Assembly: GCF_006912135.1 (NCBI RefSeq) | Contig: NZ_VIRS01000039.1 | Location: forward strand, 1-62,730 | DNA: 62,730 nucleotides | Direction: 5' to 3' | Source: Cryptosporangium phraense | Lineage (GTDB): Bacteria > Actinomycetota > Actinomycetes > Mycobacteriales > Cryptosporangiaceae | In this document: positions 6,975-38,877 of the stretch, in pieces | Layout of the letters: each line of letters starts with the position of its first letter | Numbering within the stretch: position 1 is the stretch's first letter | Notes under the pieces: model-generated | Told to the model about the DNA's origin: nothing | The model's input: the letters and a program-made list of their open reading frames with translations, nothing else | The model's database searches: none | Position numbers and translations under genes: made by a program

Positions 6975-7538
6975 ATGAGTAGTCCGGCAAGGGAGCGGGG
7001 TGTGTCCGTCTCCGAGTGGATGGCGGCCACCGCGGGCGACCTGGAGTGGGTCGAAGTCAGCGATGGGAAGTTCGTGGTCAAGCGTCTGGGAGGCAACCCG
7101 CACCACATCGTCGCTTGCGAGTTGAGGAACGAATTTCTTCGGCAGTGGCCGGAGTCGGTCGCGGCCGCGCCGGGCCACTGGGCGTTGCGAGCGTTCGGCG
7201 AGGACCACGTGTCGATCGCGCGCATACCGGATGTCCTGGTCAACGGTCCGGCTGTGCGGAGCACGTCGATCTTCGCGGGAACGCCCGATGCCGTGGTCGA
7301 AGTCTGGTCCCCGACCAACACGCTGGCCGAGATGAACGTCAAGCGACGCGAATACCGCGACGCCGGAGCGGCCGTGTTTCTGGAGGCGTTTTTAACCGAC
7401 ACCTTCGACGTCCACCTTCAGTGGTACGTGCTCGACCAAGGCCAGTGGGTGCTGCAGGCGGCCGCCGAAGGGGCGCGGGAACTCCGAGTGGAGGGCCCAC
7501 GGCCATTCACCGTCGTGCCGAACTCCTTGCTGCGCTGA
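6975..7538 (+). CDS. Uma2-family (DUF820) restriction-endonuclease-like protein
   Basis: A protein of about 187 residues with a PD-(D/E)xK-like pattern: PDVLVNG, then DAVVEVWSPTN, then KRREYRDAG. This is the core of Uma2/DUF820 proteins, abundant in actinomycetes and cyanobacteria, whose cellular role is poorly known. Two in-frame starts are close together (GTG at 6969, ATG at 6975); neither has a strong ribosome site. A TTA leucine codon occurs at 7392-7394, very rare in this window, so translation may depend on the tRNA-Leu(UAA) encoded at about 20.6 kb. It follows the response regulator by about 20 bases but need not be functionally linked. Confidence 0.75.
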   Translation: MSSPARERGVSVSEWMAATAGDLEWVEVSDGKFVVKRLGGNPHHIVACELRNEFLRQWPESVAAAPGHWALRAFGEDHVSIARIPDVLVNGPAVRSTSIFAGTPDAVVEVWSPTNTLAEMNVKRREYRDAGAAVFLEAFLTDTFDVHLQWYVLDQGQWVLQAAAEGARELRVEGPRPFTVVPNSLLR

Positions 7539-7577
7539 ACGACGGCGGCGACGGCGGGACGCATAGAGTTGCTCGGC

Positions 7578-13634: not shown

Positions 13635-14285
13635 TCAGGCACCCTTTGTCGTGGCGCAGGGTTGGGGGGCCGGCGTCCGGCCGGCGGCGAACGCGCCCGG
13701 CGTCACCCCCATCAACTGCCGGAACTCCCGCCCCAGATGAGACTGGTCATAGAACCCGGCCTGCGCGGCCACCTGGGCGATCGGCGCCGACCCGATCTCC
13801 CCGAGAACCCGCCGCACCCGCTGGATCCGCGCGAAATGCTTCGGCGAGACGCCGACCGCGGCGGAGAAGCGGTTACGCAGGTGCCGCTCGGACACCCCGA
13901 GCGAGTCGGCCGCCACGGCCACCGGGCGGTCGGTCAGCAGCGCCGCGGCCGCGTCGATCCACCGCGTCTCGCGATCGGCTCCGGCCAGATGGGGCCCGAG
14001 AATCCGGCCCGGTTCGTCCGGCGCCTCGAACCACCGCATCGCCAGCTGCTCGGCGTCCGGATGGCGCAGTTCGGAGAGCGGAACCACCCGATCGGCGAGC
14101 GCGGTCACCGGAACCCGCAGCACAGCGCGCGCCTGACCGGCCGTGAGCCGGACCCGCGGAGCCAGCGGCGCCGCGTTCGGCGAGTAGTAGAGCGCGCGGG
14201 TGCGCGGCCCCAGCACGACCAGCTCCGGACCACCGGCGGAACAGATCGACAGCACCAACTCGGTGGCCGCCGTGGGCGCGTGCAT
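13635..14285 (-). CDS. AraC-family transcriptional regulator
   Basis: A 216-residue regulator. The C-terminal two-helix-turn-helix AraC domain spans about residues 115-205, with SERHLRNRFSAAVGVSPKHFARIQRVRR followed by IAQVAAQAGFYDQSHLGREFRQLMG in separate segments, the classical second signature. The N-terminal half resembles the DUF6597-type cupin-like domain of such regulators (TRALYYSPN). It is divergent from an NmrA-like reductase gene about 90 bases away, which it probably controls. The inducer is unknown. Confidence 0.9.
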   Translation of the reverse strand: MHAPTAATELVLSICSAGGPELVVLGPRTRALYYSPNAAPLAPRVRLTAGQARAVLRVPVTALADRVVPLSELRHPDAEQLAMRWFEAPDEPGRILGPHLAGADRETRWIDAAAALLTDRPVAVAADSLGVSERHLRNRFSAAVGVSPKHFARIQRVRRVLGEIGSAPIAQVAAQAGFYDQSHLGREFRQLMGVTPGAFAAGRTPAPQPCATTKGA

Positions 14286-14372
14286 CACACCAGAAGCGTA
14301 GGGCGCGCAGCGCCCGGCGCCAGTTCCGAAACATCCTATCCCGACCGCCGGGGTCGGCGGCAGGGTGGCGCC
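14286..14372. promoter_or_regulatory. divergent AraC/NmrA promoter region
   Basis: The gap between the AraC-type regulator and the reductase must hold both promoters. A near-palindromic GC stretch gaccgccggggtcggcgg lies just before the reductase start and could be regulator-bound. Assignment is by position only. Confidence 0.35.
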
Positions 14373-15146
14373 ATGATTCTGGTGACAGGTGCCACGGGCA
14401 CGATCGGCTCCGCTCTCGTCGAGGTTCTCGCCGCGGCCGGCGAACCCGTCCGGGCCATGGCCCGCCGCCGGGTGGCGATGCCTCCCGGCGGCGAACTGGT
14501 CCACGGTGACTATGCGGACGCCGAGTCGCTGCGCGCCGCGGCCGAGGGCGTCGACGCGGCCTTCCTCCTCGACGCGGCCGGGCCGTCGGCGCCAAAGCAC
14601 GACCTGGCGTTCCTGGCGGCGGCCGGCGACGTCGGACGGATCGTCAAGCTCTCGGCGTTCGGCATCGACTCCGGCCTGGCGCCGTGGCACGAACCCGGCG
14701 AAGAGGCCGTGCGCGCGACGAAGGACTGGACGATCCTCCGGCCGTCGGTCTTCGCCTCCAACGCGCTGGGGTGGCGGCCGCAGATCGACGCCGGCGACCC
14801 GATTCCGAACCCGACCGGCGACGGCCGGCTCGGCGTGATCGACCCGCGGGACATCGCCGAGGTCGCCGCGGCCGCGCTCACCGGACGGATCTCCGGCCTG
14901 TACACGCTGACCGGCCCCGAGGCCCTCAGCACCGCCGAGCAGGTCGACGTGCTCGCCGACGTGCTCGGCCGCCCGCTCGCCGTGGCCGACGTCGACGCCT
15001 CGGAGCCGGGCTTCGCCTTCGTCCGGGCGGGCCAGGGCGCGGTCGTCACCGACGACGTGCCGCGGATCCTCGGCCGCCCGGCCCGGACGTTCCGGACCTG
15101 GGCGACCGAGTGCTTCACTCAGCAGTCGCGCAGCTCCGGCGACTGA
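14373..15146 (+). CDS. NmrA-like NAD(P)-binding oxidoreductase
   Basis: A 257-residue atypical short-chain dehydrogenase. The N-terminal dinucleotide-binding motif is TGATGTIGS, followed by a basic residue cluster MARRRV that favours NADPH. The protein belongs to the NmrA/TMR group, which includes redox sensors and quinone or isoflavone reductase-like enzymes. The typical YxxxK active site is not seen. It is divergent from an AraC-type regulator. Its 3' end overlaps the convergent SCO5389-like gene by about 28 bases. Substrate unknown. Confidence 0.85.
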   Translation: MILVTGATGTIGSALVEVLAAAGEPVRAMARRRVAMPPGGELVHGDYADAESLRAAAEGVDAAFLLDAAGPSAPKHDLAFLAAAGDVGRIVKLSAFGIDSGLAPWHEPGEEAVRATKDWTILRPSVFASNALGWRPQIDAGDPIPNPTGDGRLGVIDPRDIAEVAAAALTGRISGLYTLTGPEALSTAEQVDVLADVLGRPLAVADVDASEPGFAFVRAGQGAVVTDDVPRILGRPARTFRTWATECFTQQSRSSGD

Positions 15147-15493
15147 TTGAGCACCTGGGCCCGGGTGGACACGAACTCGTCGTACTCGGGCCCGGCCGTC
15201 GCGAACGCGGCCACCCGGTGGCAGTTCTGGAACGCCAGCCGCACCCCGAAGTGACGCTCGAGCGCACCCCGGATCGCGTCGCTGGCCAGCGCCCGCAGCA
15301 GCTGCCCGCGCTCGGCCTCGGACGGCGGCGGCGTCGCGTCGTCGGCGAAAGGCCCGTTCAGATCGGCGATGACGCCGGTGATCCTCTCCCAGGCGTACGG
15401 CAGCGACTCGCGGACGCAGTCGACGAACTCCGCGTCGGTGATCGGGCCGCGTTCGGCGCGCTCGAGCAGGCCGGTCGGGACGGTGAGGGACAT
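15119..15493 (-). CDS. SCO5389-like conserved actinobacterial protein
   Basis: A 124-residue protein similar, from memory, to Streptomyces SCO5389 and relatives: FVDCVRESLPYAWERI, TPPPSEAERGQLLRALASD, and the C-terminal LNQSPELRDC. These blocks are strongly conserved but no role is assigned. It lies nine bases after a CooC/ParA-like ATPase gene on the same strand. The same pairing is known in streptomycetes, so the two products probably act together. No membrane or signal segment is seen. The gene's 3' end overlaps the convergent reductase gene. Confidence 0.8.
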   Translation of the reverse strand: MSLTVPTGLLERAERGPITDAEFVDCVRESLPYAWERITGVIADLNGPFADDATPPPSEAERGQLLRALASDAIRGALERHFGVRLAFQNCHRVAAFATAGPEYDEFVSTRAQVLNQSPELRDC

Positions 15494-15502
15494 GGGTGCT
15501 CC

Positions 15503-16432
15503 TTATCGGGGTTGCAGGACGAAATCGGGGTCGATCTGGGCCGCGAGGTCGGTGCCGACGGCCCGGTTGCCCCAGGCCTCGGCGTTGCGCAGGTGGAACT
15601 CGACGGCCTGGCGGGTGTAGCGGGGCCAGTCGCGCGGAGTGGCGTCGACCGCGTCCCGGATCGCGGCCAGCGCGGCGCGGTCGGAGGCGCCGAGGTCGGA
15701 GAGCGCGAGCGGCGCGCCGCGTTCCGCGGCCCGGACCGCGGCCGAGTACCCGACGCACGCGAGCAGGTCGTCGCCGACCTGCTCCTCGAGGAACCTCCGG
15801 TCCACGTCGTCCAGCACCTTGTTCCCGACCACCGAGATCCGGACGTCCTGGGAAGCCGCGTACTCCCGGTACTGCCGGTACACGCCGACGCTCTTCGACG
15901 TGGGCTCGACGACCAGCACCGTGCGGTCGAACCGGGTGAACAGGCCCGAGGCGAACGCGTCCGCGCCGGCGGTCATGTCCACCACGACGTACTCTCCGAC
16001 GTCGTCCACCAGGTGGTTGAGCAGTAGCTCGACCGCACCGACCTTGCTGTGGTAGCAGGCGACGCCGAGGTCCTCCTCGCTGAACGGGCCGGTGACCAGC
16101 AGACGCGCGCCGTCGACCGGGTGGCCGTACCGGGCCCACAGCGGGTCGCCGAGCCCGAGGACCCGGGACCCGCGCCCCGGCGGGGTGGTCTTCACCATCG
16201 AGCCGGCCGACGCGATCCGCGGGTTGTCGCCGCGGAGGTACTCCTTCAGCTCGGGCAGGTGGGCTCCGAGTGGGGTGAGCGGCACGTCGGGCGCGAGGCC
16301 GAGCGCGGCGCCCAGGTGCTGGTTGATGTCGGCGTCGAAGGCGAGCACCGGGTGTCCGGCCAGCGAGCGGACGAACAGCGCGCTGAGCGTCGTCTTCCCG
16401 CTGCCGCCCTTGCCGACGAAGGCGATCTTCAT
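15503..16432 (-). CDS. CooC/ParA-like (MinD superfamily) ATPase
   Basis: A P-loop ATPase of about 309 residues. The deviant Walker A motif GKGGSGKTTL sits at residues 7-16, followed by DADINQHLG, and a later VVVDMTAGADAF acts as the Walker B/switch II region. Such proteins usually mature metal centres or position partners. The downstream SCO5389-like gene follows after nine bases and is probably the partner. I start at the ATG at 16432, matching the family N-terminus MKIAFVGKG; in-frame upstream ATGs exist, for example at 16441, and no strong ribosome site separates them. Confidence 0.85.
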   Translation of the reverse strand: MKIAFVGKGGSGKTTLSALFVRSLAGHPVLAFDADINQHLGAALGLAPDVPLTPLGAHLPELKEYLRGDNPRIASAGSMVKTTPPGRGSRVLGLGDPLWARYGHPVDGARLLVTGPFSEEDLGVACYHSKVGAVELLLNHLVDDVGEYVVVDMTAGADAFASGLFTRFDRTVLVVEPTSKSVGVYRQYREYAASQDVRISVVGNKVLDDVDRRFLEEQVGDDLLACVGYSAAVRAAERGAPLALSDLGASDRAALAAIRDAVDATPRDWPRYTRQAVEFHLRNAEAWGNRAVGTDLAAQIDPDFVLQPR

Positions 16433-16679
16433 GATGGTCATGAAAACGAAAACGAAAAGCATTGTCGAATCCGACACGCCGGTAGTAGCGCTGCGCAACC
16501 AAATCGAGGGTGAGCCCGGCCTGTTTCCTCAGATTCGGATGGGAAATCTGGCAGTGGGCTGAGAACTGGGGTCTTCCGCGATCAGCGCCCGGTCAGTTCT
16601 GTGCGGCACCACGCTACGATTGAGGCCCCGACCAGCAAGGTCGGCCGAAGACGTTGGCCGTCCAGGCCGAGGAGGCGTC

Positions 16680-19707: not shown

Positions 19708-20537
19708 GCCTCAGGGGCGCGACCGGCTCGTTCGATGAGCGTCGATCACGGCGTGGAATCCCGGTGGCAGCTCATCTCGCCGATGCCGCCGGCGAGTGCG
19801 TCGAAGGCACGCCTGGGGTCACCTTCGTGATCCCGGCGGGCTCGATCACGCGGTCCGCGCTGACGGCGGGCAACCCGTCCGCGTCGAGCAGCTTGGATGC
19901 CGCCCTCAGGATCTGGTCGCGCGTCGCCGCGCCACCGGTGAGCCGCTCGACGGACGCCGCGATCTCGTGAGCAGCCTCTCGGCAGGCGTCAACGAAGCCG
20001 CACACCGGGTGAGTCGTCGGCTCTCCGCCACCGCACGCTGCGCGAGCTTCTGCTCCTCGGCGGCCGACAGCACTCTGGCCCAGCAGTGGCACCGCTTCTC
20101 CAGAGGAAACAGCAGCGGATCGGTCATCAGCGCTTCCAGCGGCAGCGTCGCTCGATCGGCAGCCGGATGCGTCACCGAGAGCATCACGAGCGTCGGCTCC
20201 TCGTCGCCCTAGGTCAGGACGGCGTCGGCCTGGCTCTTGCGCATGACGACTGCCAGCCGGCTCCGCGACGGGCCCGGCCGTGGGGCGGTCACCCTCAGCG
20301 CCCGACCGCAGGGGCGTACTCGCGCGCCGTGCGCACGGCCTGCCGGCCCGAGGCCATGATGCTCGGCGTACGGACGAACCGCGCCACGCCGAGGTCACGT
20401 TCCATCGTCGGGCCGTCGCTGCTGCCCTGAGGCGAACCGGCATTACCCGGTACGATACCCAACGAAGGAGACGAAAAGGATATCGATTCGAGCCCGAGTG
20501 CGGATCCGTTCCACATGGCACACGTGCTTGAATTCCG
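19708..20537. other. gene-poor interval with a TetR-like remnant
   Basis: No full gene is supported. On the minus strand near 19815-19930 there is a TetR-type N-terminal helix-turn-helix (ATRDQILRAASKLLDADG, then AVSADRVIEPAGITKVT), but the next 13 codons are unrelated and end in a stop. The rest shows only short pieces in several frames. I read this as decayed genes between the beta-helix gene and a tRNA. No repeat array is seen. Confidence 0.4.
19780..19945 (-). pseudogene. TetR-family regulator fragment
   Basis: The frame gives RDQILRAASKLLDADGLP and SADRVIEPAGITKVT, close to the conserved start of TetR regulators, where the sequence normally continues FYRHFPTKDDLV. Here it becomes PGVPSTHSPAASAR and stops. 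The ligand-binding domain is absent, so the protein would not be functional. The frameshift or deletion point is near 19815. Confidence 0.55.
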
Positions 20538-20620
20538 TGCCCGGAGCGGGACTCGAACCCGCACGCCCTTTCGGGCAGCCGTTTTTAAGACGGCCGTGGC
20601 TGCCTTTACACCATCCGGGC
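20538..20620 (-). tRNA. bldA: tRNA-Leu(UAA), bldA type
   Basis: The minus strand folds as a class II tRNA. The acceptor stem is GCCCGGA/TCCGGGC, the D arm has the GTG/CAC pair with loop TAAAGGCAGC, the anticodon stem is GCCGT/ACGGC with loop CTTAAAA (anticodon TAA), a long variable arm is GCCC/GGGC, and the T arm is GCGGG-TTCGAGT-CCCGC. The discriminator is A and no CCA is encoded. The anticodon reads UUA, the rarest leucine codon here. In Streptomyces this tRNA (bldA) controls translation of TTA-containing genes. Nearby eno, divIC-like, DUF501, ppx and ndh genes resemble the streptomycete bldA neighbourhood as I remember it. Confidence 0.92.
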
Positions 20621-20718
20621 TCAGCGCAGCTTTACCGTAAGGGGAGCAACCCCCCGTAGGTAGCGGCTTTGCCAGAAGTGGGATCGGTCAGCCCAGGTAC
20701 GACCTGAACAGGTAACGC

Positions 20719-20739
20719 CGCCCGGCAACCAGCCGGGCG
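20719..20739 (-). terminator. hairpin after the NADH dehydrogenase gene
   Basis: An 8-bp perfect inverted repeat CGCCCGGC/GCCGGGCG with a five-base loop lies downstream of the ndh stop on the minus strand. It could terminate ndh transcription, although no T-run follows. It separates ndh from the tRNA on the same strand. Confidence 0.4.
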
Positions 20740-20766
20740 ACGTTCTGCAACCATTTGTGCTACGTC

Positions 20767-22218
20767 CTACGAACGAGCAGGGACAACCGGAGCCTTCTCG
20801 GCCTCGGCCGGAGTGTCCGACGGCACAGCCGGCTTGGCCGGCGGCGTCGGGCCACCCGCCGTGGCGACGGCCTCGACGACCGTCTTCGGGTCGGGCGACG
20901 ACGGCGTCGCGAACAGCTCGAAGCTGGCCCGCGGGTCGTGCAGCTGGCCCAGCGCAACGACCTCGCGACGGAGGAACAGCGCGAGCGTCCAGTCGGAGAT
21001 GACCCGCACCTTGCGGTTGAACGTGGGCACCCGGCTCACGTGGTACGCCCGGTGCATCATCCAGGCCACGAAGCCCTTGGTCTTCACCCCGTACGTCTGG
21101 GCCACACCCTTGTACAGGCCGAGGCTCGCCACCGAACCGACGTGCTTGTGCTCGTAGTTCACCGGCTGGCCGCCGTTGAGCAGGATCGCGATGTTCTTGC
21201 CCAGCCGCTTGGCCTGGCGGACCGCGTGCTGCGCGCTCGGCGAGCAGGTGGCACCGGGGGTGTCCGACGTCAGGTCGGGCACCGCGGCGCAGTCACCGGC
21301 ACTCCAGGCACCCTCGACGACGTTGCCCTCGGGGTCGACTACCTGCAGCGTCGGCAGGCAGGTGACGCGGCCGCGCTCGTCGAGCGGGAGGTCGGTGTTG
21401 GCCAGCATCGGGTGCGCCTTGACGCCGGCCGTCCAGACGATCGTCCGGGCCTCGAACTCGTCGCCGTCGGAGAGCTTGACGTGCCCGTCGACGCACGACT
21501 CCAGCCGGGTGTTCAGGCGGATGTCGATACCGCGATCGAGCAACCGCTGCACGGTGTACGCGCCCATCTCCGGGCCGACCTCGGGCAGGATCCGCTGGCT
21601 GGCCTCGACCAGCACGAACCGGATGTCGGACTGGCTGATCGTCCCGTAGTACTTCACCGCCGAGCGCACCATGTCTTCGAGCTCGGCCAGCGCCTCGATA
21701 CCGGCGTAGCCACCGCCCACGAACACGAACGTCGTCGCGGCCTGGCGGAGCGCCGGATCGTCGGTGCTGTCGGCTGCGTCCAGCTCACCGAGGACCTGGT
21801 TACGCAGGTAGATGGCCTCACCGACGGTCTTGAAGCCGACCGCGTTCTCCTTGAGACCGGGGATCGGCAGCGTCCGGGAGACCGAGCCGGGCGCGAGCAC
21901 GATGTGGTCGTAGGTCAGCTCGTAGGGGTCACCCATCACCGGGACGATCGTGGCCGTCCGCCGGGCGTTGTCCACGCTCTCGACGTAACCGGTGATGACG
22001 TGGGCTCCGCGCAGCGTCTTGCGCAGCGGCGCGACCACGTGACGGGGCTCCAGGTTGCCGGCTGCTGCCTCCGGCAGGAATGGCTGGTAGGTCATGTGCG
22101 GCTGCGGGTCGACGACGGTGATCCGCGCCTTCTTCGCCCTACGCTGCAGCTCCAACGCCGTGTACAAACCGACGTACCCACCACCGACGACGAGGATGTG
22201 CGGTCGATCCGCGCTCAT
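20767..22218 (-). CDS. ndh: type II NADH dehydrogenase (FAD/NAD-dependent oxidoreductase)
   Basis: This 483-residue flavoprotein should move electrons from NADH to the quinone pool without pumping protons. It has an N-terminal FAD-binding VVGGGYVGLYTA (about 10-21), an NADH-binding FVGGGYAGIEALAEL in the middle, and GAWSAGDCAAVPD near 300, the usual FAD-ligand block. The region after about 380 is Arg-rich (HRAYHVSRVPTFNRKVRV) and amphipathic, fitting peripheral membrane attachment. The tail is Pro/Ala-rich. It lies just downstream, on the same strand, of nothing closely spaced; a gap of over 200 bases holds its promoter. Confidence 0.93.
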   Translation of the reverse strand: MSADRPHILVVGGGYVGLYTALELQRRAKKARITVVDPQPHMTYQPFLPEAAAGNLEPRHVVAPLRKTLRGAHVITGYVESVDNARRTATIVPVMGDPYELTYDHIVLAPGSVSRTLPIPGLKENAVGFKTVGEAIYLRNQVLGELDAADSTDDPALRQAATTFVFVGGGYAGIEALAELEDMVRSAVKYYGTISQSDIRFVLVEASQRILPEVGPEMGAYTVQRLLDRGIDIRLNTRLESCVDGHVKLSDGDEFEARTIVWTAGVKAHPMLANTDLPLDERGRVTCLPTLQVVDPEGNVVEGAWSAGDCAAVPDLTSDTPGATCSPSAQHAVRQAKRLGKNIAILLNGGQPVNYEHKHVGSVASLGLYKGVAQTYGVKTKGFVAWMMHRAYHVSRVPTFNRKVRVISDWTLALFLRREVVALGQLHDPRASFELFATPSSPDPKTVVEAVATAGGPTPPAKPAVPSDTPAEAEKAPVVPARS

Positions 22219-25074: not shown

Positions 25075-25440
25075 GTAGGCGCCGTCGGCGATGACGGTCG
25101 CGCCGCGGGTCGTGCGGGCTGCGGTGGAGTCGTCGTCGACGGTGCCGTCGTTGCGGTTGGCCGGTTCCGGGTCGCCGACCCCGACCACGACGCGGGCGTC
25201 GGCGTGGATGACGACCTGCATCTTCACCGAGTACCGGCGGTTCTTCGAACGCGCGGCGATCCGTCGTCGCGGTTGCCGTCGGTGATGAGGACCCGCACGG
25301 GTGAGGGCCGGTGATCGCGTGAGCAGCGGCGCGGGCCGGTCGATGATGCGGCGTACCGCAGCCGGCTTGATCCCGAACAGCGACGCAACCGCCGCATCGT
25401 CAGAATCGGAGGTACGTCGCGACCAGCGGCACCCCGGTCG
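25075..25440 (-). pseudogene. IS5-type transposase remnant
   Basis: On the minus strand, pieces in shifting frames give FGIKPAAVRRIIDR (the HTH of IS5-like transposases), then YSVKMQVVIHADARVVVGVG, then NRNDGTVDD and ATVIADGAYR. These correspond to the order HTH, first Asp strand, RND-type block and second Asp strand of IS5 family DDE enzymes. Frameshifts interrupt them. It lies beside an IS21 fragment, so the interval is a landing site for insertions. Confidence 0.6.
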
Positions 25441-25481
25441 GCCAGACCGAGGGGGTCAGGGGCCGCGACCGGCCCTCCGGC

Positions 25482-26777
25482 CTACTTCCGGTGGATCGTG
25501 TAGTGCAGGACGAGGAACGGCAATCCGTACAGCGCGAACGCGTGCTCGGCTCGCAGTTCGCCGTCCGTCTCGTAGACGTCGAGCTGCTCGGCGAACCCGG
25601 GGACGGCCAGCGTGGTGAGCTCCCGGGTGCCGGGGTCGACGTAGGACAGATAGTGGCCGGGATGGGCCAGCCGACTGCGGCTGGTCAGCACGAGACCCCC
25701 GTCCGGGCGGGGCCCGGGGAGCAGCGTGGCCGTGAAGCTCCCCTGCGGCACCGGGAAGCCCACGCTGACGTAGCCGCGCCCCTCGTGCCGGTAGGTGGTG
25801 TAGATGCCGACGTAGATGGGCTCGTCGGTGTCGGCGAACGAGCGGATCCACCCCCGGACGCCCACGACATCGCCGCCGTCCGGCGTGATCGTGTCGATGC
25901 GGCTGCGTACTCCGCGGAGCGTCTCGCGCTGGTTCATCGGCACGTTGGCCTGGCCCACCGGACGGGCCACGAACGTGCGGTAGAGCAGGTAGCCCGGCCG
26001 CACCCAGTGCCGCCACTCGGGCACGATGTCGAGCCGGAACCGGGTGGTGTGTTCGTAGAACTCGCGGACCAACGGCTGGACGTGCGCCGGATCGAAATCC
26101 GGGCCGGCCAGGTCGTCGAGCGAGGCCACGATCCCGACGTCGGGGGCGTCGGCCTCGTACCGGCCGCCGATCACCTCGGCGAGCTCGCGAACGTAGCCGG
26201 TGCCGACGTAGCGCGAACGCGCTTCGAGCGGAACGACGAACGGCAGTTCGTCGGCCGGCGTGGCCTCGGCCAGCAAGCTCACCTGGGCGTCCCGGAAGAG
26301 CAGGGCGGACACCACCCGGAACGCGACCACCGCGCCCGCCGCCACCGCACCGGCATCCTGGCTGCTCGATCGACGGCGGCCGGCCCAGTGCCAGGCCGCG
26401 CCCACGGCCGCACCGACCACCGGGCCGAGCGCCACCTTCTGCGGCCGCAGCCCGAGCGCGCCGGCCACCGCGCCGGACGCCGTGCCCACCGCCATCGGAC
26501 CGGCACCGGTGATGCGTCCGCCGAGCCGGCCCACCGGGGCCGCCATCGCGCCGCTCATCACGACCCGCGACCACCACGCCGGAATCTCCCCGGGCCGCTG
26601 CCGGGCGCGGGCCACCGCCTCGGTCACGACCAGCGTCACCGCTCCGGCGACCGCCGCCCGGCCCCGCCGGCGTCGCGCCACCGAGGCTCCGGCCAGTGCC
26701 CCCACCGCGGCCGCGACGACCAGCTCGCCCAGGCGTTCACGACCGCCCGGACGTCGCCCGAGCTCGGTGGCCAGCAT
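25482..26777 (-). CDS. uncharacterised protein with N-terminal membrane region
   Basis: A 431-residue protein. The first 160 residues hold about five Ala/Gly-rich hydrophobic stretches ([70 protein letters not shown]), so it is probably membrane-embedded. Residues 190-431 form a soluble domain with [54 protein letters not shown] and several RxH-rich strands. I do not recognise a named family; related sequences occur in actinomycetes as far as I recall. It ends where transposase debris begins. Function unknown. Confidence 0.7.
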
Positions 26778-26809
26778 GTACGCACGCTAGCGCACCCGTG
26801 GCCGACGAC

Positions 26810-27184
26810 TCAGAGGACGGTCACGAACCACAGACCCCCGACCATCCAGACGACGAAGACCACCCACAGCACCGTCACCTGGTAGCCGATGACGAGCCGC
26901 TGCGGCCTCCGCACGTCGTACCGCACCGGCACCACCCGGCCCGGGCGGTACCGCGTCCAAGCCGTGGAGAACCGGTCGGTGCCGTACTGGAGTCGTCCGT
27001 CCGGCGTCCGGTACTCCACGACCGGCGCGCGGGTCGAACCGTCCCCGAGCGGGGTTCTGACGTTGTCCACGACGACGCCGGTGGTGGCCGGCCAGGTGAC
27101 GAGCCGACGGACGTTGCTGACGAGTTGCCAGACGCCCAGCGCCAGGAAGAGCAGCACGCCGGCCGCGAGAAGCCCCGTGTCCAT
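26810..27184 (-). CDS. DUF3592 domain membrane protein
   Basis: A 124-residue protein with a first membrane helix at about 4-22, a soluble beta-rich middle with YRTPDGRLQYGTDRFSTAW and GRVVPVRYDVRRP, and a second helix near the C-terminus. This is the layout of DUF3592 proteins, whose role is unknown. It lies downstream of the ugd gene on the same strand with a gap of 115 bases, so it may be the last gene of the polysaccharide operon or an independent unit. Confidence 0.72.
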   Translation of the reverse strand: MDTGLLAAGVLLFLALGVWQLVSNVRRLVTWPATTGVVVDNVRTPLGDGSTRAPVVEYRTPDGRLQYGTDRFSTAWTRYRPGRVVPVRYDVRRPQRLVIGYQVTVLWVVFVVWMVGGLWFVTVL

Positions 27185-27299: not shown

Positions 27300-28583
27300 C
27301 TACCGGCGGCCGAGCGCCCGGACCGTCCAACCAGCCGCCCGCCACACCGACGCATCCAAGGCGTTGCGCCCGTCCACCAGCGCCCTCGCCGCCACCACCT
27401 CGCCGAGCGCCTCCGGGTCCAGCTCCCGGTACTCGTCCCACTCGGTCAGATGCAGCACCACGTGCGCACCCTCGCAGGCCTTCTGCGCGCCCGGCGAATA
27501 GTCCAACCCCGGGAACGCGGCCCTCGCGTTGTCGACCCCCTGTGGGTCGTGCACGGTGACCCGCGCGCCCTCGGCCCGGATCGCCGACGCCACGGCCAGC
27601 GCGGGTGAGTCGCGCACGTCGTCGCTGTCGGGCTTGAACGTCGCCCCCAGCACGGCCACGTTCCGGCCCGCGAACGAGCCCCCGACCAGCTCCCGCGCCA
27701 GCGTTACGGCCCGCGCGCGACGACGGAGGTTGATCTCGTCCACCTCGCCGAGGAACCCCAGCGAGACGCCGAGCTCGGCCGCCCGGTGACGGAACGCCCG
27801 GATGTCCTTCGGCAGGCAGCCGCCGCCGAAGCCGATCCCGGCCCGGAGGAACTGGCGCCCGATCCGGACGTCGTAGCCGATCGCCTCGGCCAGCGTCGCG
27901 ACGTCGCCGCCGGTCGCCTCGCAGACCTCGGCCATCGCGTTGATGAACGAGATCTTGGTGGCCAGGAACGAGTTCGCGGCCACCTTGACCAGCTCCGCGG
28001 TCGCCAGGTCGGTGCTCACCCAGGGCACGCCGGCCGCCAGCATCGGCGCGTACACCTCACGCAGCACGGCCTCGGCCGACGACGACGTCACGCCCACGAC
28101 CAGCCGGTCCGGGCGCAGCGTGTCCTCCACCGCGAACCCCTCCCGCAGGAACTCCGGGTTCCACGCCACCTCGGCCGGCACCCGGGCGGCCAGCCGCGCC
28201 GCCGTCCCTACCGGTACGGTCGACTTGCCGACGACCAGCGCCCCCGGACGCAGCCCGGCCGCCAGATCCGCGACCGCGGCGTCCAGGTAGGTGAGATCGG
28301 CCGCCTGCGACCCCGGCTGCTGGGGCGTCCCCACACAGAGGAAATGGACGTCGCCGAAGGCGGCGGCCTCGGCCGACGACGTCGAGAAGCGCAGCCGGCC
28401 GGACGCCAGGTTCCGCGTCAGCACCTCCGGGAACCCGGGCTCGAAGAACGGCGCCCGACCCTCGGAGAGCGCGGCGATCCTGGCCGCGTCGACGTCGACG
28501 CCGAGCACCTCGTGCCCGATCTCCGCCAGGCAGGCCGCGTGGACCGCGCCGAGGTAGCCGGTGCCGATGACGGTCAGCCTCAC
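27300..28583 (-). CDS. ugd: UDP-glucose 6-dehydrogenase
   Basis: This 427-residue enzyme oxidises UDP-glucose to UDP-glucuronate with NAD. It has an N-terminal Rossmann motif IGTGYLGAVHAACLAE, VGKSTVPVGTA, NPEFLREGFAVEDTL, and the active-site region GFGGGCLPKD with the catalytic Cys. The central dimerisation helix ELVKVAANSFLATKISFINAMAE and the C-terminal ATFKPDSDDVRDSPAL are typical. GTG overlaps the stop of galE by four bases. With galE and the GT2 synthase it forms a coupled operon. The divergent decarboxylase gene can use its product. Confidence 0.95.
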   Translation of the reverse strand: MRLTVIGTGYLGAVHAACLAEIGHEVLGVDVDAARIAALSEGRAPFFEPGFPEVLTRNLASGRLRFSTSSAEAAAFGDVHFLCVGTPQQPGSQAADLTYLDAAVADLAAGLRPGALVVGKSTVPVGTAARLAARVPAEVAWNPEFLREGFAVEDTLRPDRLVVGVTSSSAEAVLREVYAPMLAAGVPWVSTDLATAELVKVAANSFLATKISFINAMAEVCEATGGDVATLAEAIGYDVRIGRQFLRAGIGFGGGCLPKDIRAFRHRAAELGVSLGFLGEVDEINLRRRARAVTLARELVGGSFAGRNVAVLGATFKPDSDDVRDSPALAVASAIRAEGARVTVHDPQGVDNARAAFPGLDYSPGAQKACEGAHVVLHLTEWDEYRELDPEALGEVVAARALVDGRNALDASVWRAAGWTVRALGRR

Positions 28584-29617
28584 TGGCCGCTCCCCACGAC
28601 GAGGCCGGCCTCGTAGCCGTACGGGTTCAGCCGCTGGAACTCCCAGGCGTCGCGCACCATCGCGTGCAGGTCGCGCGTCGTGCGCCAGCCCCACGCGGAC
28701 GCGGCCCTGGCCGGATCGGCGATCAGCATCGCCACGTCACCCGGCCGCCGCGACACGACCCGCGCCGGGATCTCGACCCCGCACGCCTCCCGGAACGCCG
28801 CCACGAGCCCGAGCACCGACGTGCCCACGCCGGTACCGAGGTTGAACACGGAGAAGCCCGGCTCCAGCTGGGACAGCGCCACCCGGTGCCCGTCGGCGAC
28901 GTCCATGACGTGGATGTAGTCACGCACGCAGGTGCCGTCCGGCGTCTCGTAGTCGCCGCCGAAGACCTGCAGCTCGGGCCGCCGTCCGATCGCGACCTGC
29001 ATCATGTACGGCATCACGTTGTTCGGCACCCCGCGGGGGTCCTCGCCGAGCAGGCCCGACGAGTGCGCCCCCACCGGGTTGAAGTACCGCAGCGCGACCG
29101 CGTTCAGCTCCGGGTAGCGACGACAGGCATCCGCGATGATGTTCTCGCAGAACCACTTCGAGCGCGCGTACGGGTTCGTCGGCGCGGCCGGCTCGGCCTC
29201 GCCGAGCGGCACGGTGGACGTCTGTCCGTAGATCGAGCACGACGACGAGAAGACCAACTCGCGGACGCCGTGGGCGAGCATCGTGCGCAGCAACGACGTC
29301 GTCGCGCTGACGTTGACGTCGTAGTACTCCAGCGGGAGCTCGACGGACTCGCCGACCGCCTTCTTCGCGGCGAAGTGGATCACCGCGTCGATCGGGTGTG
29401 CTTCGAAGACGCTCCGGAGCAGCGAGGAATCGCGGAGATCGCCCTCGTGCAGCGCGGTGATCGGCCGCCCGGCGGCCTTGTCGATCCGGTCGATCACGGC
29501 CGGCGAGCTGTTCGAGAAGTCGTCGACGACGACCACCGCGTGGCCGTGCGCGAGCAGTTCGACGCAGGTGTGGCTGCCGATGAAGCCGGCACCGCCGGTG
29601 ACCAGCACAGTTCTCAT
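28580..29617 (-). CDS. galE: UDP-glucose 4-epimerase
   Basis: A 345-residue extended SDR enzyme that interconverts UDP-glucose and UDP-galactose. It shows the NAD motif TGGAGFIGSHTCVELLAHG, HFAAKKAVGES, SSSCSIYGQ (catalytic Ser region) and NPYARSKWFCE with the YxxxK pair. RYFNPVGAH and VRDYIHVMDVADGH are further family blocks. ATG overlaps the stop of the glycosyltransferase gene by four bases (ATGA), and its own TGA overlaps the ugd GTG. It probably serves the same polymer. Confidence 0.95.
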   Translation of the reverse strand: MRTVLVTGGAGFIGSHTCVELLAHGHAVVVVDDFSNSSPAVIDRIDKAAGRPITALHEGDLRDSSLLRSVFEAHPIDAVIHFAAKKAVGESVELPLEYYDVNVSATTSLLRTMLAHGVRELVFSSSCSIYGQTSTVPLGEAEPAAPTNPYARSKWFCENIIADACRRYPELNAVALRYFNPVGAHSSGLLGEDPRGVPNNVMPYMMQVAIGRRPELQVFGGDYETPDGTCVRDYIHVMDVADGHRVALSQLEPGFSVFNLGTGVGTSVLGLVAAFREACGVEIPARVVSRRPGDVAMLIADPARAASAWGWRTTRDLHAMVRDAWEFQRLNPYGYEAGLVVGSGQ

Positions 29618-31599
29618 GAGTTTCCCAAGGCCGCAAGGACGTGGAGCAGCCGAACGACGTCGTCGAGCTGGTACAGCAACTTCAGGGATCCGAACGGGTA
29701 GTGGGTCACCGCGACGACGAACGGCACGATGACGAGCGTCGCCAGGAAGAACGGGAGCGCGACGGTCCTGCGGAAGGCCTGGGCGAAGCCGACGCGGGCG
29801 TTGCGTGCGGCCTCGCGGGCGTGCATCCACGGCACGAACAGCCCCACCCACGCGTACGCGTTCGCGGCGAACAGGCAGAGCAGCAGGTAGCCGCCGGACC
29901 GGGTGTGCAGCACGAGCTCACCGACCAGCGCGGTAGCGGACATCGCCAGGCTGATCGCGAAGTACGGGACGAGCAGGCTCGTCGGCAGCTTCTCGAACCC
30001 GTCGCTGCCCTTCGGCGTGACCCGGAAGTTGATCGGCTTCGGCCGCACCTTCTGCACCAGCGCGGCCAGCACCCCGCGCAGGTTGAGCGGCCAGCGGGTG
30101 AGCATGTACAGCCAGTCTTCCCAGCTGATGAGCGGCGCCCGGTTCGGCCGCCGCACGCCTCCGCCGCGCAGCACCAGGACGACGCCCAGCAGCCACACGT
30201 TCACGGCCCCGAAGCGGAGGATGAACTCCAGGTACGGGACGTCGACCCACTGCAGCCCGGTGAGGACGGCCACCGGCGCCAGCAGCAGCCCGGCCGCCGT
30301 CGTCGCGGTGAGCAGCGGGTAGTACAGCAGCGCGTGCAGGAACCGGATCCGCAGTGACCAGGGCATCCGGCGCAGGTGCCGGGTCATGTTCAGCAGCACG
30401 GTCGTGAGGCTGCGCGACCACTGGAACTCCTGGGTCAGCATCGCCGCGAACGTCGGCGGCCCCTCGCCGTGGGCCTCGGCCTCGAGCGCGAACGCGCCGT
30501 GCCACCCGGCCGAGCTCAGCAGGTACGTCGTCGTGAAGTCCTCGGCCAGCTCGGGGCCGACGCCGCCGATGTCGCGCAGCGCCCGGGTCCGGACCGCGTA
30601 GTGCGAGCCGATGCACGACGGGGCGTAGCCGCCGTTGCAGCCGGCCTGGTACGGCCCGTGGAAGGCCGCCTCCCGGTACAGCCGCCCCCGCGCCGACCAC
30701 GACGACGACGCGTTCGTGTCGCAGACGCTCGGCGCGGCCACGTACCCGATCGAGTCGTCGGCGAACGGCCGCACCATCTCGCGGAGATAGGAAGAGTGGG
30801 GGATGTGGTCGCAGTCGAGCTGGCTGACGACGTCGTAGTCGCGGTAGCCGTAGTGGTCGTAGAAGTACGCGAGGTTGCCCTCCTTGCACTTCTTCCGCCG
30901 CGGCCAGGTCTCCCGCTGGTACTCGAGCTGCCCTCGCCGGGTGGAGACCCGGACGCCGTGCGCGGAACACCAGCGCAGCGTCTCGTCGCTCGGGTCCTCG
31001 TCGCAGATCCAGACGTCGTACCGGGAGGGGAAGTCCTGGCGGAGCATCGCTTCGAGCGTCGTCCGGGCGGTCTCCCAGGGCTCGGACGGCGCCTTGGTGA
31101 CGCAGAACGCGACCCGGAGGTCGGGCACGCGCAGCCGCGGATTGATCGTCGTGATCCGGTTGAAGCGCAGGATCGGCAGGATCGGGTAGATCGACAGGTA
31201 GGCCAGCAGCGCGCTGTTGATCACCAGGCCGGCCCAGCCGTGCCGGTGCTCCGGCCGTAACCACCAGACCCAGAACGCGACGAGCGTCGCCAGCCACGCG
31301 GCCGTCAGCAGGTGGACGAGAACCCGGCGCGCGGGCCGGAGCGCGGGGACGAACGTGTCCGGCAGCAACGCGTGCCTGCGCACCCGGCGGGCGCGCATGG
31401 CCGGACCGCTGGCCGGCGTCCCGAGCACCTTCCCGCCGGAGAGACGGCCGATCGCCGCCTCGTACGACGTGGCGCCGAACCCCACCCCGATGGGTGCCGA
31501 CGCCTCGTACGGATCGTAACCGGCCGAATCCCACCCGAGATCGATCAGAATCGTCTCGTCCCATTCCGAAGTATTGTGTCGGGAAACGGGCCCAACCAT
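29614..31599 (-). CDS. GT2-family processive glycosyltransferase (cellulose-synthase-like)
   Basis: A 661-residue membrane glycosyltransferase. An N-terminal soluble segment of about 85 residues precedes two membrane helices (about 91-113 and 124-143). The catalytic domain (about 160-400) has VWICDEDPSDE, the DxD-type motif DCDH at about 262-265, EDFTTTYLL, and QEFQWSRS at about 390, similar to the Q/RxxRW motif of processive synthases. About five C-terminal helices follow. No PilZ domain is seen. It is the first gene of the operon with galE and ugd. A TTA leucine codon occurs at residue 114 (31258-31260). The product is probably an exported polysaccharide of unknown composition. Confidence 0.9.
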   Translation of the reverse strand: MVGPVSRHNTSEWDETILIDLGWDSAGYDPYEASAPIGVGFGATSYEAAIGRLSGGKVLGTPASGPAMRARRVRRHALLPDTFVPALRPARRVLVHLLTAAWLATLVAFWVWWLRPEHRHGWAGLVINSALLAYLSIYPILPILRFNRITTINPRLRVPDLRVAFCVTKAPSEPWETARTTLEAMLRQDFPSRYDVWICDEDPSDETLRWCSAHGVRVSTRRGQLEYQRETWPRRKKCKEGNLAYFYDHYGYRDYDVVSQLDCDHIPHSSYLREMVRPFADDSIGYVAAPSVCDTNASSSWSARGRLYREAAFHGPYQAGCNGGYAPSCIGSHYAVRTRALRDIGGVGPELAEDFTTTYLLSSAGWHGAFALEAEAHGEGPPTFAAMLTQEFQWSRSLTTVLLNMTRHLRRMPWSLRIRFLHALLYYPLLTATTAAGLLLAPVAVLTGLQWVDVPYLEFILRFGAVNVWLLGVVLVLRGGGVRRPNRAPLISWEDWLYMLTRWPLNLRGVLAALVQKVRPKPINFRVTPKGSDGFEKLPTSLLVPYFAISLAMSATALVGELVLHTRSGGYLLLCLFAANAYAWVGLFVPWMHAREAARNARVGFAQAFRRTVALPFFLATLVIVPFVVAVTHYPFGSLKLLYQLDDVVRLLHVLAALGNS

Positions 31600-31893: not shown

Positions 31894-32889
31894 ATGCGCG
31901 TGGTGGTGACCGGCGGAGCCGGCTTCCTGGGTTCGCACCTGGCGGCGAGTCTGTGCCGCCGCGGCGACCAGGTGATCTGCGTCGACAACTTCTCCACCGG
32001 ACGCCGGGAGAACATCGAGCCGCTGCTCGGCGACCCGTCCTTCACGCTGATCGAGGCCGACGTCACCGAGGGTCTGGACGTCCCCGGCCCGGTCGACGCG
32101 GTCGCCCACCTGGCCAGCCCCGCCTCCCCGCCCGACTACCACCGCCTGCCGCTCGAGACGCTCGCGGTCGGCAGCCGCGGCACCGAGTACGGGCTCCGGC
32201 TCGCGGCCCGCCACCGGGCCCGGTTCGTGCTGGCGTCGACCAGCGAGGTCTACGGGGACCCGGTCGTCCACCCGCAGCGCGAGGAGTACTGGGGCAACGT
32301 CAACCCGGTCGGTCCGCGCAGCGTCTACGACGAGGCCAAACGGTACGCCGAGGCGGTCACGATGGCGTACAAGCGCAGCTACGACCTCAACGCGGGCATC
32401 GTGCGGATCTTCAACACGTACGGCCCGCGGATGCGCCCGCAAGACGGCCGGGTGGTCACCAGCTTCATCACCCAGGCGCTGGTCGGCGACCCGCTGACGA
32501 TCTACGGCGACGGCGAGCAGACGCGCAGCTTCTGCTACGTCGACGACCTCATCGCCGGCATCGTCGCGATGATCGACAGCGACGTGACCGGGCCGATCAA
32601 CCTCGGCAACCCGGTCGAGTGGACGGTCGCCCGGCTGGCGGAGGAGATCCTCCGGATCACCGGGTCGCCGTCGGTGATCGAGAACCACCCGCTGCCGACC
32701 GACGACCCGACCCGGCGCCGGCCCGACATCACGCTCGCCCGGCAGCTGCTCGGCTGGGAGCCGGTGGTTCCGGTCGAGGAAGGCCTGCGCCGGACGATCG
32801 ACTGGTTCCGGTCCCGTCCCGAGGAACTGTTAGCCGCCGCGCCTGCGCTCTCCGGCGCCCAGCCGGGCGGCGTCGAAGTTCTCTCCTGA
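31894..32889 (+). CDS. UDP-glucuronate decarboxylase-like epimerase (UDP-xylose synthase)
   Basis: A 331-residue extended SDR protein. It has TGGAGFLGSHLA at the N-terminus, HLASPASPPDY, STSEVYGDP, NVNPVGPRSVYDEAKRYAE (YxxxK) and RIFNTYGPRM. These are signatures of UDP-xylose synthase, which decarboxylates UDP-glucuronate. The upstream divergent ugd would make its substrate. It may instead be a dTDP-glucose dehydratase-like enzyme, but HPQ and YWGN favour UXS. A TTA codon sits at 32830-32832. A strong inverted repeat follows the stop. It is transcribed alone. Confidence 0.88.
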   Translation: MRVVVTGGAGFLGSHLAASLCRRGDQVICVDNFSTGRRENIEPLLGDPSFTLIEADVTEGLDVPGPVDAVAHLASPASPPDYHRLPLETLAVGSRGTEYGLRLAARHRARFVLASTSEVYGDPVVHPQREEYWGNVNPVGPRSVYDEAKRYAEAVTMAYKRSYDLNAGIVRIFNTYGPRMRPQDGRVVTSFITQALVGDPLTIYGDGEQTRSFCYVDDLIAGIVAMIDSDVTGPINLGNPVEWTVARLAEEILRITGSPSVIENHPLPTDDPTRRRPDITLARQLLGWEPVVPVEEGLRRTIDWFRSRPEELLAAAPALSGAQPGGVEVLS

Positions 32890-36120: not shown

Positions 36121-36375
36121 GTGTCACCTCCTGCTCACGCCGTGTGACGGCGCCGTTACTCGGCTCAGGTCCGCCACTGCTGACTCGCGCCGCGATGCGT
36201 CCGGTCCGTCGCGGGGAATCCCACGACCGCCCGGTGCATCCGCGGCGCTCCCTCCAAAGTAGCTCGCCGTCGGCTATGTCACTCTCCGTCTATCGGTCAT
36301 CCGTCACACCCGGAATGTCAGGCGCTCAGTTGCCTTCGGAGTTGCGCCACCCGGATACTCCTAGCCCGCACCCAT

Positions 36376-38877
36376 ATGTCGACGGGAGAGACGCGCGTGC
36401 GCCGAGGGTTGGTTCTGGTCGCCCTGGCGTTGGCGTCCGCCGTCACTTCGGTTCTGCTCGCGGTGGCCGTCAACGTGGCTACCGGTGGTGAGCTGCCGGG
36501 GCGGCTGGCCCCGCTCGAGCCGCTGGCCTGGCCCGCGGTCGCGCTGGCCGGGCTGGTCACCGCGTTGCTGGCGTTCTGGCAGCAGCGTCCGGCCGAGCCG
36601 CCGCGCCGGCCGGTGTCGGGCGAGGGCCGCCGGGGGAGCCCGGCCGAGCTGCCCGCCGCGCCCGCGCTGTTCACCGGCCGCGACCGGGAGATGCAGGAGA
36701 TCCTGACCGCGGCCGAGGACGGTGCTCCGGTGGTGGCGGTCTCCGGACCGGCCGGCGTCGGGAAGTCCGCGCTGGTCCTGCAGGTCGCGCACCGGCTCGC
36801 CGCCAGGTATCCGGACGGCGTGCTGTTCGTCCGCCTCCGCGGGGCGAGTCCGGAGCCCGCCGACCCGGCCGACGTCCTCGGCCGGCTGCTGCGCACCCTG
36901 GGTTCCGGTCCGGACCAGGCCGACGTCGTCGAGCTGCGCGGTGACGCCGACGCACTGGCCGCCCGGTTCCGGTCCCGGATCGCCGGGCGTCGCTTCCTGA
37001 TCGTGCTGGACGATGCGGGCACCGCCCGTCAGGTCCGCCCGCTGTTACCCGGGACGCCCGGCTCCCTGGTGCTGGTGACCAGCCGTCCGGTGCTGGCCGA
37101 ACTCGACGCGGCCACGCTCGTCCGGCTCGAGGTGTTCTCGCTGGACGAGGCCCGCGACCTGCTGGTCCGGCTGGCCGGCGCGGATCGCGTGCACGCCGAC
37201 CCGGCCGCCACCGAGGCCGTGCTCCGGGCCTGCGGCAACCTGCCGCTGGCGGTCGCGATCGCCGGGAGCCGGCTGCGGGCCCGCCCGTCGTGGTCGATCA
37301 AGACGATGGCCGACCGGCTGGCCGACGAGGGCCGCCGGCTCGACGAGCTGAGCTCCGGCCACGACGCGGTGCGGGCCAGCGTCGCCGCCACCTACGTCGA
37401 ACTCGACGCCTACCACCAGCGGGTGTTCCGGCGACTGGGCGCACATCCGGGCACCGACTTCGACGCCCCGGCCGCGGCCGCGCTGGCCGACCTGATCCCG
37501 GCCGGAGCCGTGCCCGCCCTCGACCGGCTGGTCGAGCGTCAGCTGGTGGAGGTCGTGACCAGCGACCGGTACCGGCTGCACGACCTGCTGCGGCTGTTCG
37601 CGGCCGAGCAACTCGGCGACGGGTCCGAGTACCCGGACGCGCTGCGCCGCCTGGCCCGGCACTACGCCGAGCGCGTCACCGGCCCCGACCAGGATCTGTA
37701 CGAGCCCGGCTACGTCGGCGACGAACCGGCCGAGGCCGCCGCGGTGGACGTCGAGCGCGAGAACATCATCGCGACGGCGTCGACGGCCGAGGCCGCCGGT
37801 CTGCACGAGGCGGCCTGGGAGCTGGCCGTCGCGGCCGAGCCCGCATTCGCCCGGTACCCGTACCACGCCGACGCCCGGCGGCTCTGGGACGCCGGTCTCG
37901 CCGCCGCCCTGGCCCTCGGTGAGCCCGAGCGGATCGCGCGGGCGGAGTACGGGATGGGCCGCGCCGCCCAGTACAGCGGCGACGTGCAGCGCGGGCTGGA
38001 CCACGCCCGGGCGTCCCTCGAGTGGTGGGAGCGAACCGACGACGAGCGGAACAGCGCGGCCGCGCACCGGCGCCTGGCCAGCTCTCTGCACAGCGTCGGC
38101 CGGCTGGCCGAGGCCGAGGACCACTACCAGCAGACGATCCGCCTCTGTGACCGCACGATCGCCGCCCCGGCGCCCGGCTCGCGGTGGTCCGCGGACGAGG
38201 CCCGCGCGCTGCGCGCCTCGGCGATGCGCGGTCTCGGCAGCCTGATCGTCGCGCTGGGCCGGATCGACGAAGCCGTGCAGACGCTGCAGGGCGCGGTGGA
38301 GATCCGCCGTAACGCCGGCGACAGCGCCGGGCTGGCCCGGGCGCGCACGTCGCTGGCCCGGGCGCACCGCAAGGCCGGCCGCACCGAGGTCGCGCGCGAG
38401 CTCGTCACGCCGCAGCTGGTGGTGTTCCAGCGGCTCGGAGACGCGATGTGGGAGATCACGGCGCTGCGCGAGATCGGGCGGCTGGAGCTGGCCGACGGGC
38501 GTCTGGCCCAGGCCGCCGAGCACCTGGAGTCCGCCCGCGTGCTGGCCGAGCGCAGCCGCAACCGCACCGGCGCCGGCATCACGCTGGTCGCGCTGGCCGA
38601 CGTCGACCTCGCGGCGGGCCGCCCGGACGCGGCGGCCGAGCGGTTGCGCCGAGCCGCGGACGGGTTCCGGGCGGTCGGCGACCGGGTCCGGGAGGGCACC
38701 GCGCTGCTGCGGCTCGCGCTGCTGCTGACCAACCGGGGCCAGGACGTCGACGACATCGTCGAGCGCGCCCGGACCGTACTGGTCGACGTCGAACTGCCGG
38801 AGGCCGAGGAGTTGCTGGCACGCGTCCGGCGGGTGCCCGGAGCGGCCGACCCCACCCGCTCCGACCTGGGGCGCTGA
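36376..38877 (+). CDS. membrane-anchored STAND (NB-ARC) NTPase with TPR repeats
   Basis: An 833-residue signalling-type NTPase. Two hydrophobic helices lie at about 10-33 and 50-68, followed by a Walker A loop SGPAGVGKSALV (about 123-134), Walker B FLIVLDDA and the NB-ARC landmarks GNLPLAVAIAGSRL and LHDLLRLFA. The rest (about 470-833) is helical with TPR-like repeats, for example GRLAEAEDHYQQTI and GRIDEAVQTLQGAVE. This resembles the AfsR/SARP C-terminal part without the DNA-binding domain, and also animal and plant NLR architecture. A TTA codon is present at 37045-37047. The gene has no strong ribosome site and stands alone. Possible roles are signal sensing or defence. Confidence 0.9.
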   Translation: MSTGETRVRRGLVLVALALASAVTSVLLAVAVNVATGGELPGRLAPLEPLAWPAVALAGLVTALLAFWQQRPAEPPRRPVSGEGRRGSPAELPAAPALFTGRDREMQEILTAAEDGAPVVAVSGPAGVGKSALVLQVAHRLAARYPDGVLFVRLRGASPEPADPADVLGRLLRTLGSGPDQADVVELRGDADALAARFRSRIAGRRFLIVLDDAGTARQVRPLLPGTPGSLVLVTSRPVLAELDAATLVRLEVFSLDEARDLLVRLAGADRVHADPAATEAVLRACGNLPLAVAIAGSRLRARPSWSIKTMADRLADEGRRLDELSSGHDAVRASVAATYVELDAYHQRVFRRLGAHPGTDFDAPAAAALADLIPAGAVPALDRLVERQLVEVVTSDRYRLHDLLRLFAAEQLGDGSEYPDALRRLARHYAERVTGPDQDLYEPGYVGDEPAEAAAVDVERENIIATASTAEAAGLHEAAWELAVAAEPAFARYPYHADARRLWDAGLAAALALGEPERIARAEYGMGRAAQYSGDVQRGLDHARASLEWWERTDDERNSAAAHRRLASSLHSVGRLAEAEDHYQQTIRLCDRTIAAPAPGSRWSADEARALRASAMRGLGSLIVALGRIDEAVQTLQGAVEIRRNAGDSAGLARARTSLARAHRKAGRTEVARELVTPQLVVFQRLGDAMWEITALREIGRLELADGRLAQAAEHLESARVLAERSRNRTGAGITLVALADVDLAAGRPDAAAERLRRAADGFRAVGDRVREGTALLRLALLLTNRGQDVDDIVERARTVLVDVELPEAEELLARVRRVPGAADPTRSDLGR

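Follow-up and report, generated by a model that had tools for sequence, protein, structure and literature searches.

The closest described counterpart of the system considered here is bldA of Streptomyces, the tRNA-Leu with anticodon UAA that reads the leucine codon TTA. Its reach has been judged in two ways: a review argues that the role of bldA in development may end with Streptomycineae (PMC4255298), and a later survey suggests that bldA may matter in most Actinobacteria (PMC10327506). A literature search found no paper naming both 'TTA codon' and 'Cryptosporangium'. Here, we analysed the TTA codons in a stretch of 62,730 bases with 72% G+C (called the window throughout), which is an entire contig (C39) of the 8.46-Mb genome of Cryptosporangium phraense (G000), an assembly of 87 contigs with gaps. 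The comparison covered three further genomes of the same genus (G001, G002 and G003; 9.2-9.6 Mb), one genome from a second genus of the family (G004) and fifteen other families of the order. The original prediction, made from the letters of the window, had taken four TTA codons to mark a small, biased set of genes and to suggest bldA-type gating of an envelope polymer and of a signalling NTPase. We lean towards a different reading, in which the window simply reflects the TTA content of the genome at large and one tRNA serves a set of TTA-tolerant genes that is conserved in the genus. The observation as first stated is ordinary, and the conserved set may be what lies behind it.

TTA codons in the window and in related genomes

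Genes and gene starts were called with our own script rather than a standard caller; TTA was given a neutral score during calling in the window, so that the gene call is not biased by this codon. The 53 called window genes comprise 16,532 codons, four of which are TTA, with one in-frame TTA per carrier gene and none within the first 70 codons. This call yielded exactly the four genes named before: a Uma2-like gene (7002..7538, plus strand; PF05685 at 37.6 bits, cut-off 27) with TTA at 7392, codon 131; a cellulose-synthase-like membrane glycosyltransferase of family 2 (GT2; 29614..31485, minus strand; PF13632 at 60.1 and PF13641 at 51.1 bits, cut-offs 27) with TTA at 31258-31260, codon 76; an extended short-chain dehydrogenase/reductase (SDR) recognised by Pfam as an NAD-dependent epimerase/dehydratase (31894..32889, plus strand) with TTA at 32830, codon 313; and an NB-ARC/TPR STAND NTPase (36397..38877, plus strand; PF00931 at 49.4 bits, cut-off 23.5) with TTA at 37045, codon 217. 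As had been claimed, the core genes eno, mtrA, mtrB, lpqB, hpf and the gene of the CBS-domain cystathionine synthase are free of TTA (identities from Pfam, the names MtrA and MtrB being based on domains and the adjacent lpqB). A fifth in-frame TTA lies at 47903, codon 329 of an uncalled open reading frame (46919-47992) that has no Pfam match and a G+C content at third codon positions (GC3) of 0.77.

The rate of TTA in the window was then set against the genome. A sample of 35 stretches of G000 (20 kb each, 700 kb in all) has TTA in 75 of 623 genes that encode 100 amino acids or more, and after addition of nine stretches and the window the count is 91 of 812, about one gene in nine; 16 stretches of G002 gave 34 of 308. 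The window, with 4 of 48 genes, does not differ from the rest of the sampled genome (87 of 764 genes in 880 kb; Fisher p=0.64); an enrichment of TTA in the window was therefore rejected, the window being at the genome average instead of holding a small, biased set. TTA genes are not clustered in operons or among neighbours either: adjacent pairs numbered 12 against 9.75 expected in G000 (p=0.25), and the observed and expected numbers were 8 and 6.8 in G001, 6 and 6.8 in G002 and 5 and 2.9 in G003, without excess at p 0.05. Because adjacent TTA genes occur at chance level, the two that had been described as starting the halves of one polysaccharide locus form a neighbour pair of the kind expected by chance and need no explanation. 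A control genus of the same order, similar to the window species in having equal G+C (G018 and G047; 80 kb each around the UAA tRNA), has TTA in 1 of 128 genes; none of 45 ortholog pairs there contains it, so the gene-level persistence described below is not computable in that genus.

Across relatives, one of the four sites is shared and three drift. The Uma2 site is TTA in G000, G002 and G003, but in G002 and G003 the gene is in pieces, and no ortholog was found in G001 or G004; the C. phraense gene has a GC3 of 0.83 and is most readily seen as decaying. The GT2 gene has its TTA at codon 76 in G000, at aligned codon 378 in G002 and at codon 8 in G004; G001 holds two fragments without TTA and with CTA at codon 76, and the codon-76 site is not TTA in any of 20 more distant named relatives, two of which carry the codon at another position of the gene. 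For the SDR gene, TTA is codon 313 in G000, the adjacent leucine 312 in G002 and absent in G001. In the NB-ARC gene, TTA is present in each of the four species sampled (codon 217 in G000; 90, 191 and 590 in G002; 88 and 167 in G001; 172 in G003, each in its own numbering), with one site common to G001 and G003.

Persistence of TTA in orthologous genes and NB-ARC paralogs

Since the NB-ARC gene kept TTA in four species while its sites shifted, the ortholog comparison was widened to genes called in 943, 453, 800 and 251 kb of G000, G001, G002 and G003, respectively. Orthologs were reciprocal best matches, for which at least 55% identity and 70% length were required, and this gave 264 ortholog groups and 751 pairs from unevenly sampled regions; bootstrapping was performed over groups because species pairs are not independent. 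Most of the sampled orthologous genes are TTA-free in every species, and a minority carry TTA in several, often at different leucines. The presence of TTA in one species predicts TTA in the ortholog with an odds ratio of 43.4 (20-124), and the corresponding values were 11.3 for ATA, 5.3 for AGA, 4.3 for AAT, 3.4 for TTT and 1.9 for the synonymous CTA; the persistence of TTA exceeds that of ATA (bootstrap P=0.013). Taken singly, the six species pairs gave odds ratios of 35-85 for TTA. Among the 133 groups present in three or four species, TTA was found in no species in 111, in one species in 5 and in at least two species in 17, whereas for ATA these numbers were 109, 17 and 7. In an earlier set of 254 pairs at 50% identity, a logistic model that allowed for GC3, identity, length and AT-ending rare codons left an odds ratio of 62 for TTA in the ortholog, and 17 TTA genes were shared vs 2.75 expected. 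In 16 of the 17 ortholog pairs with TTA in both genes in this set, GC3 is 0.88-0.97 in both. At leucines kept in both orthologs, the same codon was retained at a rate of 0.42 for TTA vs 0.15 for CTA (P=0.004).

TTA occurs in at least two species in 26 ortholog groups, 23 of which were scanned with Pfam. These comprise regulators (the NB-ARC protein, a TetR regulator, a response regulator, a Ser/Thr kinase and two histidine kinases) and others (two symporters, a sodium/proton exchanger, two binding proteins, an aldo-keto reductase, a protein of inositol-phosphatase type, a member of the wax ester synthase family, the GT2, the SDR and two DUF proteins), with no family found for five groups. Regulators are thus part of the multi-species TTA groups, not the whole. 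Of the 91 TTA genes of G000, 90 were scanned with Pfam alongside 90 length-matched genes without TTA; the lists of the 25 commonest families show four AAA_16 proteins, three kinases and three response regulators among the TTA genes. On contig C26 of G000, a symporter, a small gene, a LytTR regulator and a histidine kinase follow each other in a row (L240:10993-14954), and each has TTA in two or three of the four species, in varying combinations.

The original prediction had also raised an enrichment of TTA in STAND genes, and this was borne out for NB-ARC genes of G000. The search scored 150 of 203 candidates and found at least ten such genes, perhaps not all, of which eight carry TTA. With the window gene left out, TTA is present in 7 of 9 found NB-ARC genes vs 17 of 107 genes of 500-1100 amino acids (p=0.0002), and with low-GC3 genes dropped as well in 4 of 6 vs 17 of 103 (p=0.012); two NB-ARC genes that sat in the comparison sets were removed, which gave p = 0.00016 and 0.009. 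Three genes of low GC3 (L336, L339 and L345; 0.52-0.82) are counted in the 8 of 10 and excluded from the 4 of 6; L345, with a GC3 of 0.52, may be in the wrong frame, and L336, L338 and L339 are truncated by the end of the locus. The high-GC3 set of six showed no significant rise of CTA, ATA or AGA (p=0.53, 0.21 and 0.11). The five high-GC3 NB-ARC genes with TTA contain five TTA and no CTA codons, and over all seven high-GC3 NB-ARC genes TTA stands to CTA as 5 to 6 (P=0.30). TTA sites differ among the paralogs except for one column common to two of nine aligned. The NB-ARC gene of the window is a firm member of the TTA-tolerant set. Its protein resembles AfsR, a SARP-family regulator, in that it aligns to model positions 282-952 of 986 (NF053617, E 4e-98), but it differs in lacking the N-terminal SARP DNA-binding part (329.6 bits vs a cut-off of 1430) and in having two N-terminal hydrophobic stretches.

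The tRNA-Leu(UAA) gene and the polysaccharide locus

The window contains a feature that had been overlooked, a bldA-type tRNA-Leu gene with the anticodon UAA (20537..20620, minus strand; ARAGORN; Rfam tRNA 51.7 bits). The presence of a UAA tRNA is in itself ordinary for bacteria. It is the sole UAA tRNA among 40 decoded tRNA matches in G000 (E up to 0.001), in which the leucine anticodons are UAG, CAG, GAG and the one UAA. A tRNA-Leu(CAA) is present in G001-G004 but was not among these 40 matches, which also include no tRNA-His. Since the adjoining pyruvate-kinase-like gene (read from its first residues) was likewise not found in G000, an assembly gap is the most likely cause. True loss of the CAA tRNA would have made gating impossible, because the UAA tRNA would then have to decode the common codon UUG; this reading was set aside, as the neighbouring gene is missing from the assembly too.

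Upstream of the tRNA gene, the region 20621..20745 (minus strand) contains an inverted repeat, seen by eye, behind an NDH-like gene. In an alignment of five genomes, this repeat is followed by a stretch that is near-identical in four species of the genus: about 35 bases at 20655-20692 (the GACCGATCCCACTTCT region) are almost unchanged, and the flanks diverge. A conserved TAC..T hexamer upstream of the tRNA would suit a -10 element, and the 35-base stretch may act in the control of the tRNA gene. The NDH2-like pyridine nucleotide-disulphide oxidoreductase (20767..22218, minus strand; Pfam) adjoins the tRNA in all five family genomes examined. The block of DLH hydrolase, UDG, NDH-like and tRNA-Leu(UAA) genes (20537-23919) is relocated and inverted here, whereas G001, G002 and G003 all share one arrangement. 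Near it on either side are genes, at 13635-16462 and 25051-27184, that have no counterpart in the syntenic stretches fetched from G001-G003 and G004.

Beside the GT2 gene lie a nucleotide-sugar dehydrogenase (27300..28583; 409.4 bits, cut-off 189.8) and a UDP-glucose 4-epimerase of the GalE family (28580..29608; 400.8 bits, cut-off 262.3), both on the minus strand and free of TTA. A GT2 with membrane segments next to these two enzymes is the arrangement of cellulose-synthase-like GT2 loci, but the window GT2 reaches 64.2 bits with the CelA model, whose cut-off is 699.1. The SDR, previously labelled UDP-xylose synthase-like, scores 93.8 of the 294 bits called for by NF008872 and can be named only as a general extended SDR. 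A query with the GT2 among the 2,071 genes called in the four species gave four matches, two of them with TTA (p=0.07), and a genome-wide search for glycosyltransferases gave 27 matches. Gating of the polysaccharide locus is not supported: the SDR lacks TTA in G001, TTA genes are unclustered, and the comparison of pairs within genes and across species (below) shows nothing beyond tolerance. The GT2 and SDR genes are possible members of the TTA-tolerant set. Further along the window, 2.7 kb between a SpoIIM-like gene and an adenosine deaminase gene (46063-48740; G+C 0.75) are without called genes; in G002 and G003, respectively, the aligned genes lie about 120 and 770 bp apart, and the stretch had no match among plasmids.

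Tolerance, gating and the comparison with Streptomyces

For the conserved set of TTA-tolerant genes we propose the following explanation. If tRNA-Leu(UAA) is scarce, TTA would slow or limit translation; selection would then purge the codon from genes whose output matters in growth, and genes able to bear a brake could gain and lose TTA. Several observations weigh against this reading. Adjusted for the number of leucines, the co-occurrence of TTA at different sites is 2.68-fold (0.96-4.82), which is the top value of 61 codons and lies above CTA (P=0.037), but it is inseparable from ATA (P=0.21) and AGA (P=0.12). Excluding shared-site pairs leaves odds ratios of 17.5 for TTA and 3.1 for ATA (P=0.0037 for TTA above ATA; TTA at 23-51 in four of the six species pairs and at 3.3 and 11.8 in the other two), but taking these pairs out also makes the margins thinner and pushes the ratio up. 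Same-site retention of TTA hardly exceeds that of ATA (0.38). Genes of the most conserved class (≥90% identity, not sorted by function) are not free of TTA, as 12 of their 202 instances contain it, vs 8.6-13.9% in the four other identity classes. The original prediction was to fail if TTA occurred equally in housekeeping genes; this refutation goes half way, the codon being about half as common in the most conserved class but still present. Finally, TTA does not look strongly avoided: relative to an expectation of TTG x CTA / CTG it was counted 102 times vs 19 in G000 and 55 vs 16.8, 77 vs 15.7 and 26 vs 14.2 in the other three genomes, a 1.8- to 5.4-fold excess over the 2,071 genes. AGA is above its like expectation too (94 vs 34 in G000).

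Two other explanations were weighed. True bldA-type gating would mean that the tRNA accumulates late or on a signal and that NB-ARC regulators and some envelope genes are selected to retain at least one TTA at whatever position, which would confine their proteins to that time. We consider this unlikely, although persistence of TTA at the gene level with turnover of sites is what it would produce, and it would also suit the NB-ARC enrichment with five TTA and no CTA in the five TTA-bearing high-GC3 genes, the conservation within the genus of the region upstream of the tRNA, and the Uma2 site, which is TTA in all three species that have the gene. In the survey, the TTA genes of Streptomyces are described as frequently enriched for transcription and signal transduction (PMC10327506). 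Gating should, however, replace lost TTA codons, and of this there is no sign: the numbers of pairs within a gene and across species match (ratio 1.35, 0.78-3.0), with no clear excess across species. This is as plain tolerance predicts, and the same count gave no evidence of selection for the retention of TTA. TTA genes are unclustered, and the 5 to 6 of TTA to CTA over all seven high-GC3 NB-ARC genes does not set TTA apart. A 5' bias gave no clear sign of gating: TTA is enriched 5.9-fold at gene starts in G000, 2.2-fold in G002, 1.2-fold in G001 and not at all in codons 2-20 of G003, but in G000 AGA (6.8) and ACA (4.0), among others, show the same, and the starts come from our own gene calls. 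The limit at Streptomycineae that the review allows for the developmental role of bldA also counts against gating (PMC4255298).

Plain codon noise, in which TTA appears wherever codon selection is weak through low expression, recent arrival or decay and tRNA supply has no role, would suit the Uma2 gene with its low GC3 and broken orthologs, the low GC3 of three of the ten NB-ARC genes and a window at the genome average; ATA and AGA, the other rarest codons, also persist at the gene level, though less. We nevertheless find it rather doubtful as a full account, since 16 of the 17 shared-TTA pairs have high GC3 in both genes, the logistic model with its covariates leaves a large odds ratio and more shared genes than expected, and the synonymous CTA persists little.

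The tolerant-set reading is thus the one we favour. A bolder version, that the genus, outside Streptomycineae, uses UUA supply as a translational brake acting on genes rather than on sites, with NB-ARC/STAND regulators as the core regulon, seems improbable to us. Of the bldA-type interpretation, the UAA tRNA gene, the halved frequency of TTA in the most conserved genes, the gene-level persistence and the TTA richness of NB-ARC genes stand, whereas the biased set, the conservation of sites and the gating of the locus are not supported. Persistence of TTA at the gene level with turnover of sites is a test of the reach of bldA that can be run from genomes alone; here, with few genes, its result points to a TTA-tolerant set that is conserved and has among its members an NB-ARC NTPase with paralogs that are TTA-rich too.

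In comparison with the bldA/TTA system of Streptomyces, C. phraense shares a single detected tRNA-Leu(UAA) gene, TTA as a very rare leucine codon, its lower frequency in the most conserved genes and sites that are mostly unconserved. An adpA ortholog was not singled out, as there were too many candidates with a DJ-1 domain. The two differ in that no TTA-specific 5' bias was seen here and in the share of genes concerned: about 11% of genes carry TTA, compared with 147 genes in S. coelicolor (PMC4255298) and 51-505 open reading frames per Streptomyces genome (PMC10327506). By analogy, the TTA-tolerant set may resemble the Streptomyces bldA set in some respects, without being classifiable as a member of it.

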